Shown here: positions 3,139 to 21,203 of the stretch, piece after piece
Numbering within the stretch: position 1 is the first letter of the stretch
How the letters are laid out: every line of letters starts with the position of its first letter
Origin: Armatimonadota bacterium
Lineage (GTDB): Bacteria; Armatimonadota; JAAZEB01
Direction: 5' to 3'
DNA: 36,483 bases
Assembly: GCA_012512505.1 (NCBI GenBank)
Contig: JAAZEB010000096.1
Location: 1-36,483, forward strand
The notes under the pieces: generated by a model
What the model was told of the DNA's origin: nothing
What the model saw: the letters and a program-made list of their open reading frames with translations, nothing else
Databases searched by the model: none
Position numbers and translations under genes: made by a program

Positions 3139-3383
3139 AGCATCGTGATTGCATGGCGGGAAGCCCGACCGTGTGCGTGGTTGGTCCGAACTAGTTATTA
3201 CCCAGCACTAGACGAGAAAAAGGGGTCTGGCGTCCAGAAGCGGCGTGGTAGTCTCGGCCGCGGCCGGGAAATCGCAACGCGAACGGCAGGACCCCGCCCG
3301 TGGGATACGCGGGTATCCAACTAAGGGGACAAACGGCACGGTGGGGCTTTCCCGTTCCCGAGGGAGGCCGGAGGCGAGGTGGG

Positions 3384-3827
3384 ATGGGAGCAGCGCAGGG
3401 AGGCGCCAGATCACCAGAGGTCATTGAGCTCACGGTTCCTTCCGACGCACGCTTCCTGGAGCTGGTTTACGCCTGTACCGAGCAGATCTGCAAGCAGACC
3501 GGCCGGCTCACCGCCGAAGAAACCTTCAAAATCGCCTGGGGCGTCCATGAAGCCTGCGTGAACGTCATCGAGCACGCCCACCAGTTCCAGGCCTGCAAAC
3601 CGCTCCGTATTCAGGCGCTTGCCTGCCCCGACTGCCTCGAGTTCCGCATCTACGACTCCGGCCCCGGCTTTGACCTGGCACGCATCCCCGAGCCAGACCC
3701 CTCTCAGGTGTTCGAGCGCGGGCGCGGCCTGTTCGGCATGCGCCAGTGCATGGATCTGGTGGAGTACCGCCAGGGAGCGCACGGCAACTGCCTGCGCCTG
3801 GTGCGCCGCATCGGCGCCTTCGCCTGA
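3384..3827 (+). CDS. RsbW-type anti-sigma factor / serine kinase
   Basis: 147-residue histidine-kinase-like ATPase of the RsbW/SpoIIAB type. Such proteins bind a sigma factor or other partner and phosphorylate a STAS antagonist on serine. All ATP motifs are intact: N box EACVN (E56, N60), G1 DSGPGF (91-96) and G2 GRGLFGM (113-119). The start at 3384 was chosen because GGAGGCGAGG precedes it; an earlier ATG at 3300 has no ribosome site. A STAS protein is encoded 3.6 kb away (7440-7799), a possible partner by inference only. It converges on the FAD oxidoreductase gene with just one base between stop codons, leaving no room for a terminator. Confidence 0.85.
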   Translation: MGAAQGGARSPEVIELTVPSDARFLELVYACTEQICKQTGRLTAEETFKIAWGVHEACVNVIEHAHQFQACKPLRIQALACPDCLEFRIYDSGPGFDLARIPEPDPSQVFERGRGLFGMRQCMDLVEYRQGAHGNCLRLVRRIGAFA

Positions 3828-5869: not shown

Positions 5870-7003
5870 ATGAGTGCAGCCACGAGTCGCGAGCGTGTGT
5901 TCGCTGCCCTGTCACTCGACGGCACCGACGACTTCCCGGTGCTTTTGCCGTATCTCGGCATCCTCCTGCGTGATCACTGGGCCGAGATCACCAACCTTCC
6001 GTGGTGGGTGGAACTGGCGGGCGACATTGAGTCGCGCTTCCAGGTGGCCCGCGATCTGCTTGAGGCGACCGCCATCGACTGGACGCCTGGCGAGATGTGC
6101 GCCGGCCGCGCCTGGCGCGAGGAGCACCGGGTGGGGCATGAGGGGGGGCGCGTCTTCTTGCAGAACCGGGTCAGTGGCGAGCGCCGTGAGGTGCACCCGG
6201 AACCGCCCGGCGGCACGCAGTCGTTCGCAAAAACCCCCCTGATCACCAGCATCGCTGACGTGGACCGCCTGCTGCCGATCACCCCGCACACGCAGTTGGT
6301 GGCTGAAGGCTACCTCGACTACGCCCGGCGCGCCGTCGCTGCCCTGGGCTCCGACCACTTCATCTTCGCCTCGGTGGGCGCTCCCTTCTGGTGCGCGTTC
6401 AACTACCTCACCTTCGAGGGCCTGATGACCGCCGTGGTAGAGAACTCGGACTTGCTGGGCTACTTGCTCGAGCGCCTGACCGCGCAGCAGATCGAAAGCG
6501 TGCGTGCTTACGCCGCCGCCGGCATCCATGGCGTCTGGGTGGAAGATTGCTACTCGTCGGCCGACTTGATCTCCGCCGAACAGTTTCGGCGCTTCGCGCT
6601 TCCCTACGTGGCGCGCGTCATCGCGGAGATCAAGGCCCTGGGGATGCACGCGGTCTACTACTTCTGCGGCGACGTGCACGACCGCCTGACCGACCTGGTG
6701 GCGGCTGGCCCCTCAGCCCTGTCGCTGGAGGAGAGCAAGAAGGGCTTCCGGATCGACCTGGCGGAGGTGGCCGAGATCGTCCGGGGCCGGTGCGCGCTGC
6801 TGGGTAATCTGGACGCGGTAGGCGTGCTGGAGCAAGGCGACAGCGAGACGCTGCGGCGTGCCCTGGCCCAACAGGCGGCGGTGGGGCGAAAGTGGCCACG
6901 CTTTGCCTTCTCGCTGGGAAGCCCGGTCACGGCGCTCACCCCACTGTCGCGAGTGCAAGAGTACGTGCGCACCGCCAGGGAGCTGGCAAGCAGCGCCGCG
7001 TGA
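5870..7003 (+). CDS. Uroporphyrinogen decarboxylase-like protein
   Basis: 377-residue TIM-barrel protein of the URO-D superfamily, recognised from the opening SRERVFAALSLDG, the barrel core IHGVWVEDCYSSADLISAEQFRRFALPY, and AVYYFCGDVHDRLTDLV followed by CALLGNLDAVGVLEQG. Genuine HemE converts uroporphyrinogen III to coproporphyrinogen; this protein lacks the usual HemE N-terminal PVWxMRQAGR motif, so it more likely belongs to the broad methyltransferase/unknown-substrate branch common in Armatimonadota. The start at 5870 is set by the promoter at 5809-5838 and a GAGAG/GAGG ribosome site; the ATG at 5837 overlaps the -10 box and cannot be used. It is a monocistronic unit as far as can be seen, with a 436-base gap following. 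Confidence 0.75.
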   Translation: MSAATSRERVFAALSLDGTDDFPVLLPYLGILLRDHWAEITNLPWWVELAGDIESRFQVARDLLEATAIDWTPGEMCAGRAWREEHRVGHEGGRVFLQNRVSGERREVHPEPPGGTQSFAKTPLITSIADVDRLLPITPHTQLVAEGYLDYARRAVAALGSDHFIFASVGAPFWCAFNYLTFEGLMTAVVENSDLLGYLLERLTAQQIESVRAYAAAGIHGVWVEDCYSSADLISAEQFRRFALPYVARVIAEIKALGMHAVYYFCGDVHDRLTDLVAAGPSALSLEESKKGFRIDLAEVAEIVRGRCALLGNLDAVGVLEQGDSETLRRALAQQAAVGRKWPRFAFSLGSPVTALTPLSRVQEYVRTARELASSAA

Positions 7004-17370: not shown

Positions 17371-17784
17371 CTATTGATCGCCGCCGAGGTTGTAGCGCTT
17401 GTCGGGCGTTTCGTTCAGCGCCTGGAAGATCCGCTTCACGAAGGCGAGCAGCTCCATCGGGTTGAACGGCTTGGTCAGGTAGGCATCGACGCCGGAGGAC
17501 CAGCCGCGGAAGATGTCGGCGTCCTGGGCCTTGGCCGTGAGCATGATGAAGGGGATGTCGCGCGTTTCCGGATCGGCGCGGATGGTGCGCAGCACCTCGA
17601 AGCCGTCCATATACGGCATCATGACGTCGCACACGATCAGATCGGGGTTGACATCCTTCACCTTGCCGACGGCCTCTTTGCCATCGAACGCGGTCGCCAC
17701 CTCGTAGCCGGCGCGCTCCAGGTTCACCTGCACCAGTCGAACGATGTGCCGCTCATCGTCCACTACCAGTATCTTCTTTGCCAT
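17371..17784 (-). CDS. Single-domain response regulator (CheY-like receiver)
   Basis: 137 residues, only a receiver domain. All phosphorylation residues are present: D9, D10, phospho-acceptor D53 (CDVMMPYMDG), T83 and K105 (LTKPF). No output domain, so it signals by protein contact, perhaps with the neighbouring RsbW-like/STAS modules or another partner. The start at 17784 has GAGGAGG about 12 bases upstream. It is driven by its own strong promoter at 18048-18077. No histidine kinase is adjacent. Confidence 0.93.
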   Translation of the reverse strand: MAKKILVVDDERHIVRLVQVNLERAGYEVATAFDGKEAVGKVKDVNPDLIVCDVMMPYMDGFEVLRTIRADPETRDIPFIMLTAKAQDADIFRGWSSGVDAYLTKPFNPMELLAFVKRIFQALNETPDKRYNLGGDQ

Positions 17785-18047: not shown

Positions 18048-18077
18048 ATTATACACGAACGCTGAAAGCTGTGTCAA
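18048..18077 (-). promoter_or_regulatory. Consensus SigA promoter for the response regulator
   Basis: TTGACA (18077-18072), 18-base spacer, TATAAT (18053-18048) on the minus strand: both boxes are perfect consensus. The -35 overlaps the stop codon (18074-18076) of the upstream RsbW-like gene, so transcription of the response regulator is separate from, and possibly interfered with by, the chaperonin operon. Confidence 0.85.
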
Positions 18078-18484
18078 GGCAAGGGGCCCTGGCGCTTCTT
18101 GAGCAGGCGCAGCACCGGGCCGTGCGGAGTCTGGGTGAGGGTCACGTCATCCACCAGGCGGCGCAGCAGGAAGGTGGGAAACTCGTCGTCCAGCAGGTGC
18201 GCCAGGGCAGCGGCGGTGGGTTCGCCCCGCCCGCCCATTTCGGCGACGACACTGTCGCCCTCCAGCCAGAAGCGGACGGTCACCGCCTGGCCCTCGGCGT
18301 GCGCGGCGTGCGCGGCGGTCACCAGGCGGTTGCACACTTCCGAAACAGCGATCTGCAAGTCTTCCAACTGCAGTGGCGCCAGGCCGGCGCGCGCGCCCAC
18401 CACCTCCACCACGCGCCGGGCCACGGCCACGTACTCCGGTGCCGCCGTGAACTCCACCGCGATTGACTCGGCCTGTGCCATCAT
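18074..18484 (-). CDS. Degenerate RsbW-like (HATPase) protein
   Basis: 136 residues with the RsbW layout: start EFTAAPEYVAVARRVVEVV, then LEDLQIAVSEVCNRLVTAAH where the N box should be, and VLRLLKK at the end. The ATP motifs are eroded: the N box spacing is E49-N52 instead of E+4, the G1 DxGxGF reads EMGGRGE, and the G2 GxGLFLIR lid reads EFPTFLLRR. It is therefore probably a binding-only relative that cannot phosphorylate; this is inference. Its ATG overlaps the chaperonin stop (ATGA), so translation is coupled to the chaperonin. Partner could be the STAS protein at 7440-7799 or an unseen sigma factor. Confidence 0.7.
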   Translation of the reverse strand: MMAQAESIAVEFTAAPEYVAVARRVVEVVGARAGLAPLQLEDLQIAVSEVCNRLVTAAHAAHAEGQAVTVRFWLEGDSVVAEMGGRGEPTAAALAHLLDDEFPTFLLRRLVDDVTLTQTPHGPVLRLLKKRQGPLP

Positions 18485-20040
18485 TCCCCTGCCGTCTCGG
18501 GCTCCGGGCGCTTCTTGATGATCGTGTCGATGCGCAGGATCGCCTCCGCCACCTCGAAGGCAGTGCGCAGCGCCTGCTGCTTTACCGGGAAGGGGTCCAC
18601 CACGCCGGCTTCGCCCATCTCCCGCACCTCGCCGCTGTCGCAGTCGATGCCCAGCGAGGGGCAGCCCCGGGCCGCCTGGGCGGCGGTCACGTCTTCCACC
18701 TTCTCCAGCGGGTTGAACCCGGCGTTGGTGACGATCTGCATCAGCGGCCGCTTCAGCGCCTCGGCAACGCAGTCGGCGCCATAGGCGGCCATGCCCCGCA
18801 GCTCCTCGCGCAGCGCCTGCACGGCCCGGGCCGCGGCGATCTCCACCGAGCCGCCCCCCGGCACCGCGCCGCCTACCACCACCGCCTGCAGCGCCGCCGC
18901 CGCGTCGCGCGCGATCCGCTCGCGCTCGTCGCGCACCTCCCGGGTAGACGCCCCCACCAGGATCGTCGCCACCGGCTTGCCGGTGCCGCCGACGACGAAC
19001 AGGCAACCACGCCGCTCGTCGGCCCGCACTTCCGCGGCGAACCCCAGCACCGCCGCCAGCTCCTGCGGGCTGCGCTTCAGCGCCGTGCGCTTCACCGGAC
19101 GGGCACCGCAGTGCTCGGCGATGCTGCTCAGGTCGCTCCCGGCTACCCGGCGCACGGCCAGGGCACCGGCCTCGGTCAGCAACTCCTCGGCCACCGGGTC
19201 AATGGCGCGCTCCACCACCACGCAGCGCACGCCCGCTTGCAGCGTGGTTCGCAGGCCCTGGCGGAACTCCTCTTGCACCTGCAGGAAGCGGTTGAAGCCG
19301 GCCTCGGTCGCCAGGGCTTCCTCGCTCAGCGCCTCCGGCTCCAGGGCATCGTCGATCACCAGCACGCGGGCATCGGTCAGGTGCGCCGGCATCTGGCGGT
19401 TCATCCGCTCCTTGCGGATCACCACGCCTTGGATCACCGCGCTCTCGGCGCCTTCCTGGGCCACCACGCGCTCGGCCAGCCGATAGTGAGGGTCGAGGAG
19501 TGTCTCCCGGCCGATGAGGCGAGCCGCTTGGACCACCAGGTCGGCGATATCGGCGTGCTCGCGGCCGGCGACGTAGGCGGCCTGACGCAGCAGGGTGTCG
19601 TCCAGGCTTTCCGGGCGCCGGGCCAGCGTCGTGATCACTTCCAGGGCGCGGGTGATGCCGGCGCGCATTCCCTCCAGGATCCGGGTGACGGGCACCCCAC
19701 GCGAGACGTGGTGAACGGCGGCCTGGATGAGGGCGTTGGCGAGGAGGGTCGTTGTGGTGGTGCCGTCGCCCACCTCCCGCTCCTGGGCTTTGGCGGCATG
19801 AATCAGCAGGCGCGCCGCCGGGTGGGAGACCTCAATCTTGTCGAGGATGGTGCTGCCGTCGTTGGTGATGGTGACATCGCCCAGGGTGTCGATCAGCATG
19901 CAGTTGAGGCCCTTGGGGCCCAGCGTGCCCTCGACGGCGGAGGCGACGGCGCGGATGGCGTTGGCGTTGGTGAGCAGCGCCGACAGACGCTCTTCCCCCT
20001 CCGGCGGCCGGGCGCCGCCGCTGCCGCGTGGCTCTGCCAT
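18481..20040 (-). CDS. Archaeal-type (group II-like, 'group III') chaperonin
   Basis: 519 residues. The sequence follows the thermosome/CCT plan, not GroEL: TLGPKG (39-44), DTLGDVTITNDGSTIL (51-66), VSHPAARLLIHAAKAQEREVGDGTTTT (catalytic GDGTT at 91-95), and VGGAVPGGGSVEIAAARAV for the second ATP segment. The middle, from MPAHLTDARVLVIDD to LQAGVRCVVVE, contains the acidic stretch expected for the built-in helical lid that replaces GroES. Bacterial archaeal-like chaperonins (group III) are known from Carboxydothermus and a few other lineages. AGGAG precedes the start at 20040. It sits in an operon with hrcA upstream and a degenerate RsbW downstream. No groES is adjacent, as expected for a lid-containing type. 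Confidence 0.9.
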   Translation of the reverse strand: MAEPRGSGGARPPEGEERLSALLTNANAIRAVASAVEGTLGPKGLNCMLIDTLGDVTITNDGSTILDKIEVSHPAARLLIHAAKAQEREVGDGTTTTTLLANALIQAAVHHVSRGVPVTRILEGMRAGITRALEVITTLARRPESLDDTLLRQAAYVAGREHADIADLVVQAARLIGRETLLDPHYRLAERVVAQEGAESAVIQGVVIRKERMNRQMPAHLTDARVLVIDDALEPEALSEEALATEAGFNRFLQVQEEFRQGLRTTLQAGVRCVVVERAIDPVAEELLTEAGALAVRRVAGSDLSSIAEHCGARPVKRTALKRSPQELAAVLGFAAEVRADERRGCLFVVGGTGKPVATILVGASTREVRDERERIARDAAAALQAVVVGGAVPGGGSVEIAAARAVQALREELRGMAAYGADCVAEALKRPLMQIVTNAGFNPLEKVEDVTAAQAARGCPSLGIDCDSGEVREMGEAGVVDPFPVKQQALRTAFEVAEAILRIDTIIKKRPEPETAGE

Positions 20041-20114: not shown

Positions 20115-21203
20115 CTACAGGCTCAGCTTGGTGAGCACCTCGCCCAGCGATTGGGCCATGAACTGCACCGCCGGCAACGCCCGGTCGTAGTCCATCCGCG
20201 TTGGCCCCAGCACGCCCACCGAGCCGACGTAGCGGCCGAGCACCGTGTAGCGCGCGGCGATCAGCGAGCACGGCTGCATGCGGGGGTCGCCGCTCTCGCT
20301 GCCGATGATCACCCGGGCGCCCTCGTTGTACACTTCACGCAGCAGCGAGAAGAGCTGACGCCGCTCCTCCAGCACTCCCATCAGCCCGCGGACGACATTG
20401 GCGTTTTCAAACTCCGGCTGGCGCAGCACCTCGGCGGTGCCCTCCACCACCACCTCGCCACTCTCCTCGGCGCGGATCCGCGTCAGCAGGTCGAGCACCG
20501 TGCCACAGACCGCCCGGTAGACGGTGTCTCCCTCCGCCGAGAGCAGGTCGTGGCCGGCAGGCGTCACGCTGACGGCCTGGGCCACCGTGCGGCCTTGCAA
20601 CGCCGAGACCACCAGGCGCTCGATCCCGCTCAGGTCCACCGTCATCAGGTCCACGCCGGCCTGCACGACGGCGTGCTCCACGCGGCCGGTGGCCAGGGCG
20701 ACAACGACGAGCAGGCGGTCGCGGTCGAGGGTGGCGAGATGCACCTGGCGCACGATATCCTGCTCCACCTGCGGGGGAGTTGCCATGGAGACGTAGTGGG
20801 TGAGCGCGGAGAGCATGCGGCAGGTTTGATGCAGCACGCGCTCCACCTCGGCGGTTGCCTTTTCAAGCTGCGCGCGCAGCCGGCGGCGGTGCATCGCGTC
20901 GAGGGGGCAGGGGGTGAGGAGCCAATCGACGTAGAAGCGGTAGCCTTTCTCGGAGGGCACGCGGCCGGCCGAGGTGTGTGGCTGTTGCAGATAGCCCATC
21001 TCGGCCATCTCGGCCATCTCGTTGCGCAGCGTGGCAGAGCGTACCCCAAAATCGTAGCGATCGACGAGCGCCCCAGAGCCGACCGGCTCAGCCGTCTCGA
21101 CGTAGTCGCGCACCACCGCCTGTAGGATGCGCTGCTTACGCTCCTCCAGCTCGATTCCCGGGGCGCGGGGTACCTCAGTAGGTGATGAGACTGTGTACCG
21201 CAT
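20115..21203 (-). CDS. hrcA: Heat-inducible transcription repressor HrcA
   Basis: 362 residues. HrcA represses chaperone genes by binding CIRCE and needs chaperonin activity to fold. The N-terminal winged helix is clear: LEERKQRILQAVVRDYVETAEPVGSGALVDRYDFGVRSATLRNEMAEMAEMGYLQQPHTSAGRVPSEKGYRFYVD; the rest is the GAF-like dimer domain ending GVLGPTRMDYDRALPAVQFMAQSL. The start at 21203 lies 29 bases inside apt; AAGG is close before it and no better codon is seen. No CIRCE sequence (TTAGCACTC-N9-GAGTGCTAA) was found in the window, so its target here is unclear, and it may regulate other chaperone loci elsewhere. Confidence 0.95.
   Translation of the reverse strand: MRYTVSSPTEVPRAPGIELEERKQRILQAVVRDYVETAEPVGSGALVDRYDFGVRSATLRNEMAEMAEMGYLQQPHTSAGRVPSEKGYRFYVDWLLTPCPLDAMHRRRLRAQLEKATAEVERVLHQTCRMLSALTHYVSMATPPQVEQDIVRQVHLATLDRDRLLVVVALATGRVEHAVVQAGVDLMTVDLSGIERLVVSALQGRTVAQAVSVTPAGHDLLSAEGDTVYRAVCGTVLDLLTRIRAEESGEVVVEGTAEVLRQPEFENANVVRGLMGVLEERRQLFSLLREVYNEGARVIIGSESGDPRMQPCSLIAARYTVLGRYVGSVGVLGPTRMDYDRALPAVQFMAQSLGEVLTKLSL

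Follow-up and report, generated by a model that had tools for sequence, protein, structure and literature searches.

The window, the whole 36,483-nucleotide stretch of an Armatimonadota contig that was analysed (source genome G000), carries on its reverse strand hrcA, a chaperonin gene and a gene for a 136-residue protein, here called X (Table 1). The start-codon region of X (ATGATG) forms an ATGA overlap with the TGA stop codon of the chaperonin gene, so that synthesis of X is probably coupled to that of the chaperonin in G000 and in a second genome, G001, which shares the order hrcA-chaperonin-X; the coupling to the chaperonin gene proposed in a first-pass annotation of this DNA is thereby supported as a translational overlap, but is weaker than proposed. 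We infer that the chaperonin belongs to Group III from its thermosome-like sequence in a bacterium and from the literature (PMC5220055, PMC5635000), in which the usual place of Group III chaperonin genes is the dnaK operon; a literature search returned nothing on point for a Group III chaperonin with hrcA, or for an Armatimonadetes chaperonin with a sigma factor. At the other end of X, a perfect sigma-70 consensus promoter has the X stop codon inside its -35 box, and G001 has its counterpart in the same arrangement (L038 8453-8482, + strand). Most simply, this promoter drives the downstream response regulator gene, and X is the last gene of its operon. Control of the operon by HrcA through CIRCE was rejected, because no CIRCE site was found within three mismatches anywhere in the window. 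The two groES loci of the genome (contigs C183 and C247; L148 and L149) are each preceded by a perfect CIRCE, and these are the only two perfect CIRCE sites that it contains.

Table 1. Features of the window discussed in the text
Feature	Positions	Strand	Evidence
Window RsbW, N, G1 and G2 boxes intact; Tyr at Arg23 and Lys at Asp42 positions	3300-3827	+	Alignment
Single-domain response regulator, probably on its own transcript	17371-17784	-	PF00072 101.5 bits; promoter
Perfect sigma-70 consensus promoter, TTGACA-N18-TATAAT; X stop codon inside -35 box	18048-18077	-	Sequence; conserved in G001
X, 136 aa, RsbW fold, ATP site eroded	18074-18484	-	ORF; PF13581; AF2 and Foldseek
X: G2 / end of ATP lid, DEFPTF, glycines absent	18170-18187	-	Alignments
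X: G1 region, GGRGE, DxGxG aspartate absent	18221-18235	-	Alignments
X: N box, E49 V C N R53, with Arg at the canonical Asn site	18326-18340	-	Alignments
Chaperonin, putatively Group III (thermosome-like); stop overlaps X start (ATGA)	18481-20040	-	PF00118 380 bits; TIGR02339 309 bits (below cut-off of 671)
hrcA, upstream of chaperonin	20115-21203	-	TIGR00331 283.5 bits, above cut-off

X has the RsbW fold. It matches PF13581 (HATPase_c_2) with 58.1 bits (cut-off 27.4) and the NCBIfam RsbW models below their cut-off; by sequence it matches the RsbW structure 6m36 (E 1.9e-7); and its AF2 model (mean pLDDT 87.8) finds Bacillus subtilis RsbW 6m37 as the top Foldseek match (E 1.3e-9), followed by Mycobacterium tuberculosis UsfX (8ih8, 8jzt). 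The identification of X as an RsbW relative in the first-pass annotation thus holds, as does its observation that the G1 aspartate and the G2 glycines are missing: the alignments give VAEMGGRGEP for G1, with no Asp, and LLDDEFPTF for G2, with no glycines. Its description of the N box as abnormal also stands, but not the altered spacing that it proposed. For numbering, X was set against a full-length B. subtilis RsbW sequence that we take to be correct and whose first part was confirmed by the 6m36 alignment. The two align with no indel from residue 7 to past the N box, their numbering coincides to residue 53, and residues 48-54 read SEVCNRL in X and SEACTNA in B. subtilis, with no gap between, placing Arg53 of X on the canonical Asn site (N53 of B. 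subtilis RsbW) and Asn52 one residue early. The N box of X is therefore substituted rather than displaced, and a shifted N box was ruled out.

Orthologues of X number three, counting that of G000, and come from three genera (G000, G001 and G002) of one Armatimonadota family; the G000 protein is 59-60% identical to that of G001 and 61% to that of G002. Among 291 Armatimonadota genomes searched with a profile, three had a high-scoring X, all in this family, and a fourth, G238, had a weaker relative adjoining an argininosuccinate lyase-like gene. EVCNRL, the loss of DxGxG and the loss of the G2 glycines are common to all three orthologues, none of which has the combination of N-box Asn, G1 DxGxG and G2 glycines of a kinase. 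An isolated mutation in G000 was rejected because both other orthologues share the losses; the comparison of orthologues that the first-pass annotation had suggested thus found the motifs consistently lost and no orthologue with intact boxes. It is reasonable, on these alignments, to suppose that X has lost kinase activity. UsfX, to go by the title of a 2008 report by Malik et al., is said to bind and hydrolyse nucleotides, so motif loss is no proof that nucleotide binding is gone in X.

Pairwise NG86 dN/dS of X is about 0.42 (G000-G001), 0.41 (G000-G002) and 0.60 (G001-G002), with dN of 0.32-0.41 and dS of 0.69-0.83, the latter probably underestimated in this GC-rich DNA. First, second and third codon positions differ by 26, 23 and 47% (G000-G001), 29, 26 and 45% (G000-G002) and 35, 25 and 46% (G001-G002), and 61 residues are invariant across the three orthologues. 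Between G000 and G001, X is about 60% identical, whereas the chaperonin is 72-73% and the response regulator 93% identical. These values fit a fast-changing protein that is probably under moderate purifying selection.

The association with the chaperonin is narrower than the overlap might suggest. Of 61 genomes searched with the chaperonin, 14 gave a match at E <= 1e-30, and X lies beside the chaperonin in two of these, G000 and G001, and only there. Neighbourhoods were inspected in 11 of the other 12. No RsbW-like gene was found by the chaperonin (blastp with X) in 11 of the 12 genomes outside X's family, the neighbourhood in G010 ending at a contig edge; the twelfth, G041, has no X match anywhere at E <= 0.001. 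Several Armatimonadota relatives resemble the X locus in having the chaperonin behind hrcA, several of them with a grpE-like gene after it, whereas an RsbW-like gene 3' of the chaperonin was seen only in X's family. Conserved co-occurrence of the kind expected of a chaperonin co-factor was not found. In G002, a scar of the chaperonin C terminus (L039 7315-7450, - strand), fused to an unrelated frame, keeps the ATGA overlap with an intact X; the similarity to the chaperonin C terminus covers roughly the last 43 codons of the gene before X (alignment score 77, against 54 for the best shuffle, n = 2000), and neither a full-length chaperonin nor HrcA was found elsewhere in this genome, which is 80% complete. 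At this locus X has thus persisted beyond the chaperonin, and it is followed by a pseudopilin-like fragment (L039). The chaperonin frame of G001 is broken at an eight-G run (L038, about 6620-6640), which may reflect either misassembly or a genuine frameshift.

The face of RsbW that binds its partner is largely kept. In the solved complex of B. subtilis RsbW with RsbV, the RsbW residues that contact RsbV are Arg23, Asp42, Lys44/Ser48, Glu49 and Tyr118, the equivalents of R23, D42, S48 and E49 form hydrogen bonds with RsbV, and the RsbW dimer is formed via alpha1 and beta1 (PMC7340262). R23, S48 and E49 are retained in all three X orthologues and D42 in two (Glu in G001); position 44 is Gln, and Tyr118 aligns with Phe or Tyr. 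Stronger conservation of the N-terminal than of the C-terminal part of X was dropped as a sign of a partner face because sets of sigB-linked RsbW proteins show the same trend. R23 is missing in just two paralogues among 51 tabulated rows, and one of the two is the RsbW of the window, which the first-pass annotation had named, together with a STAS protein of the window, as possible partners of X. The boxes of that RsbW are intact as stated, but it has Tyr in place of R23, and neither gene is linked to X in both G001 and G002, each of which has at least five homologues of the STAS protein. An rsbV-rsbW-sigB operon on contig C122 of the same genome is a better candidate for the source of a partner.

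The RsbW of that operon is itself eroded, with Ser at the N-box Asn site. A search of 61 genomes for SigB-type sigma genes led to an alignment of 33 sigB-adjacent RsbW-like proteins (loci L107-L135, L021, L028, L035 and L037); the N-box Asn is absent from 15 of these sigB-linked Armatimonadota proteins (genomes G000, G001, G002, G003, G006, G012, G016, G017, G020, G027, G033, G042, G045, G051 and G055). Contig C224 of G000 further encodes a fusion of a STAS domain with an RsbW domain whose ATP motifs are eroded (L147 4994-5809, - strand). Erosion of the ATP site is not special to X. In a tree built from all columns, X falls within the eroded sigB-linked group (bootstraps of 85-94 along the path), whereas removal of the N, G1, lid and G2 columns takes it out of that group to a place beside non-sigB paralogues of G055 and G020; constraining X to group with the eroded proteins, with every sigB-linked row or with its own family's copies gave p-AU of 0.109, 0.555 and 0.22, and AU tests rejected none of the three. 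Because the trees disagree and all three placements stand, we claim neither an origin nor an independent loss of motifs for X.

By analogy, X appears closest to UsfX and RsbW1 in its motifs and to RsbW3 as an extra copy. M. tuberculosis UsfX (RsbW, Rv3287c) likewise combines the RsbW fold with an eroded N box, in which Arg replaces Asn (EVCTRL; EVCNRL in X), and it lacks DxGxG and the G2 glycines (VVVEASAACDT and VAPGSFSWHVL in a profile alignment). Binding of SigF and RsfB by UsfX has been demonstrated, and structures of UsfX-RsfB and SigF-anti-sigma complexes have been solved; the partners proposed for X are putative. In addition, usfX/rsbW1 is cotranscribed with sigF, whereas X follows a chaperonin gene and the SigB-type gene lies on C122. 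In M. smegmatis, RsbW1 is an anti-SigF factor that does not phosphorylate RsfB, kinase activity resides in the paralogue RsbW2, and RsbW3, which the authors grouped with kinase-lacking anti-sigma factors, is an antagonist that acts by binding RsbW1 (PMC7693655); unlike X in its hrcA-chaperonin operon, RsbW3 is encoded beside rsfA and belongs to the SigF regulon. B. subtilis RsbW (6m36/6m37) and SpoIIAB share with X the fold, the size and R23, D42, S48 and E49, but are ATP-dependent serine kinases with the N, G1 and G2 boxes, of which X has none. The sigB-linked RsbW proteins of Armatimonadota, many of which are likewise without features of the N, G1 and G2 boxes, differ from X in being encoded directly upstream of sigB and in carrying other N-box substitutions.

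On the best reading, X is a binder of sigma-B partner-switching proteins and was recruited into the chaperonin operon; that it is a UsfX-like protein with no functional ATP site, binding a STAS protein, a SigB-type sigma factor or both with no kinase activity, we hold at about an even chance. X would probably dimerise via beta1/alpha1, probably bind a STAS anti-anti-sigma factor and/or a SigB-type sigma factor through the face that includes R23, D42 and E49, and hold this partner within the sigma-B network represented by the C122 operon while phosphorylating nothing; the direction of any effect on sigma-B, like any link to proteostasis, would be putative. The maintained reading frame, the bias of change towards third codon positions and the persistence of X in G002 after its chaperonin argue for such a binder; its location outside any sigma operon, the Gln at position 44 and the infirm placement in the trees argue against it.

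The kept beta1/alpha1 region, and the fact that X is a single RsbW copy remote from sigB, would also suit a decoy role like that of RsbW3, in which X heterodimerises with the sigB-linked RsbW, disables it and so raises rather than lowers sigma-B activity; we regard this as unlikely, X lying neither in a sigma regulon nor beside an rsfA-like gene as RsbW3 does. Rather improbable is a sink that titrates unphosphorylated STAS proteins and dampens release of sigma-B while leaving the sigma factor untouched. The STAS-contact residues, the STAS homologues in G001 and G002 and the STAS-RsbW fusion in G000 speak for it, but RsbW-family proteins are expected to bind sigma factors through this face too, so the kept residues do not tell a sink apart from an anti-sigma factor.

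The first-pass annotation had suggested that X could be a chaperonin-linked sink or sensor. In such a role X would work with the Group III chaperonin as an adaptor or sensor and report its load to sigma-B. The ATGA overlap and the gene order common to G000 and G001 accord with this, but little else does: X is intact in G002 beside a chaperonin scar, the 11 other relatives inspected have no RsbW-like gene by the chaperonin, the window has no CIRCE while the two perfect sites of the genome precede groES, and eroded ATP sites recur in sigB-linked RsbW proteins. We consider it quite improbable. Decay of X as a passenger gene with no present function would explain its rapid change relative to its neighbours and its three lost motifs, but is very improbable for a protein that is full-length in three genera, with dN/dS of about 0.4-0.6, most change at third positions, 61 invariant residues and one common set of motif substitutions.

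Kinase-dead relatives of RsbW are already known from mycobacteria, and the preferred reading, a partner-switching binder, would make X a modest variant of them whose tie to the chaperonin looks loose. Eroded RsbW proteins appear to be widespread in Armatimonadota, sigB-linked copies included, which suggests that in this phylum sigma binding and kinase activity are commonly divided between proteins. In Bacillus, the chaperonin and sigma-B stress systems are regulated separately. It is improbable that a translationally tied, kinase-dead X lets expression of the chaperonin tune the sigma-B general stress response directly; were X nevertheless to tie synthesis of the chaperonin to sigma-B, these two systems would be connected by a hard-wired link between a folding operon and partner switching.
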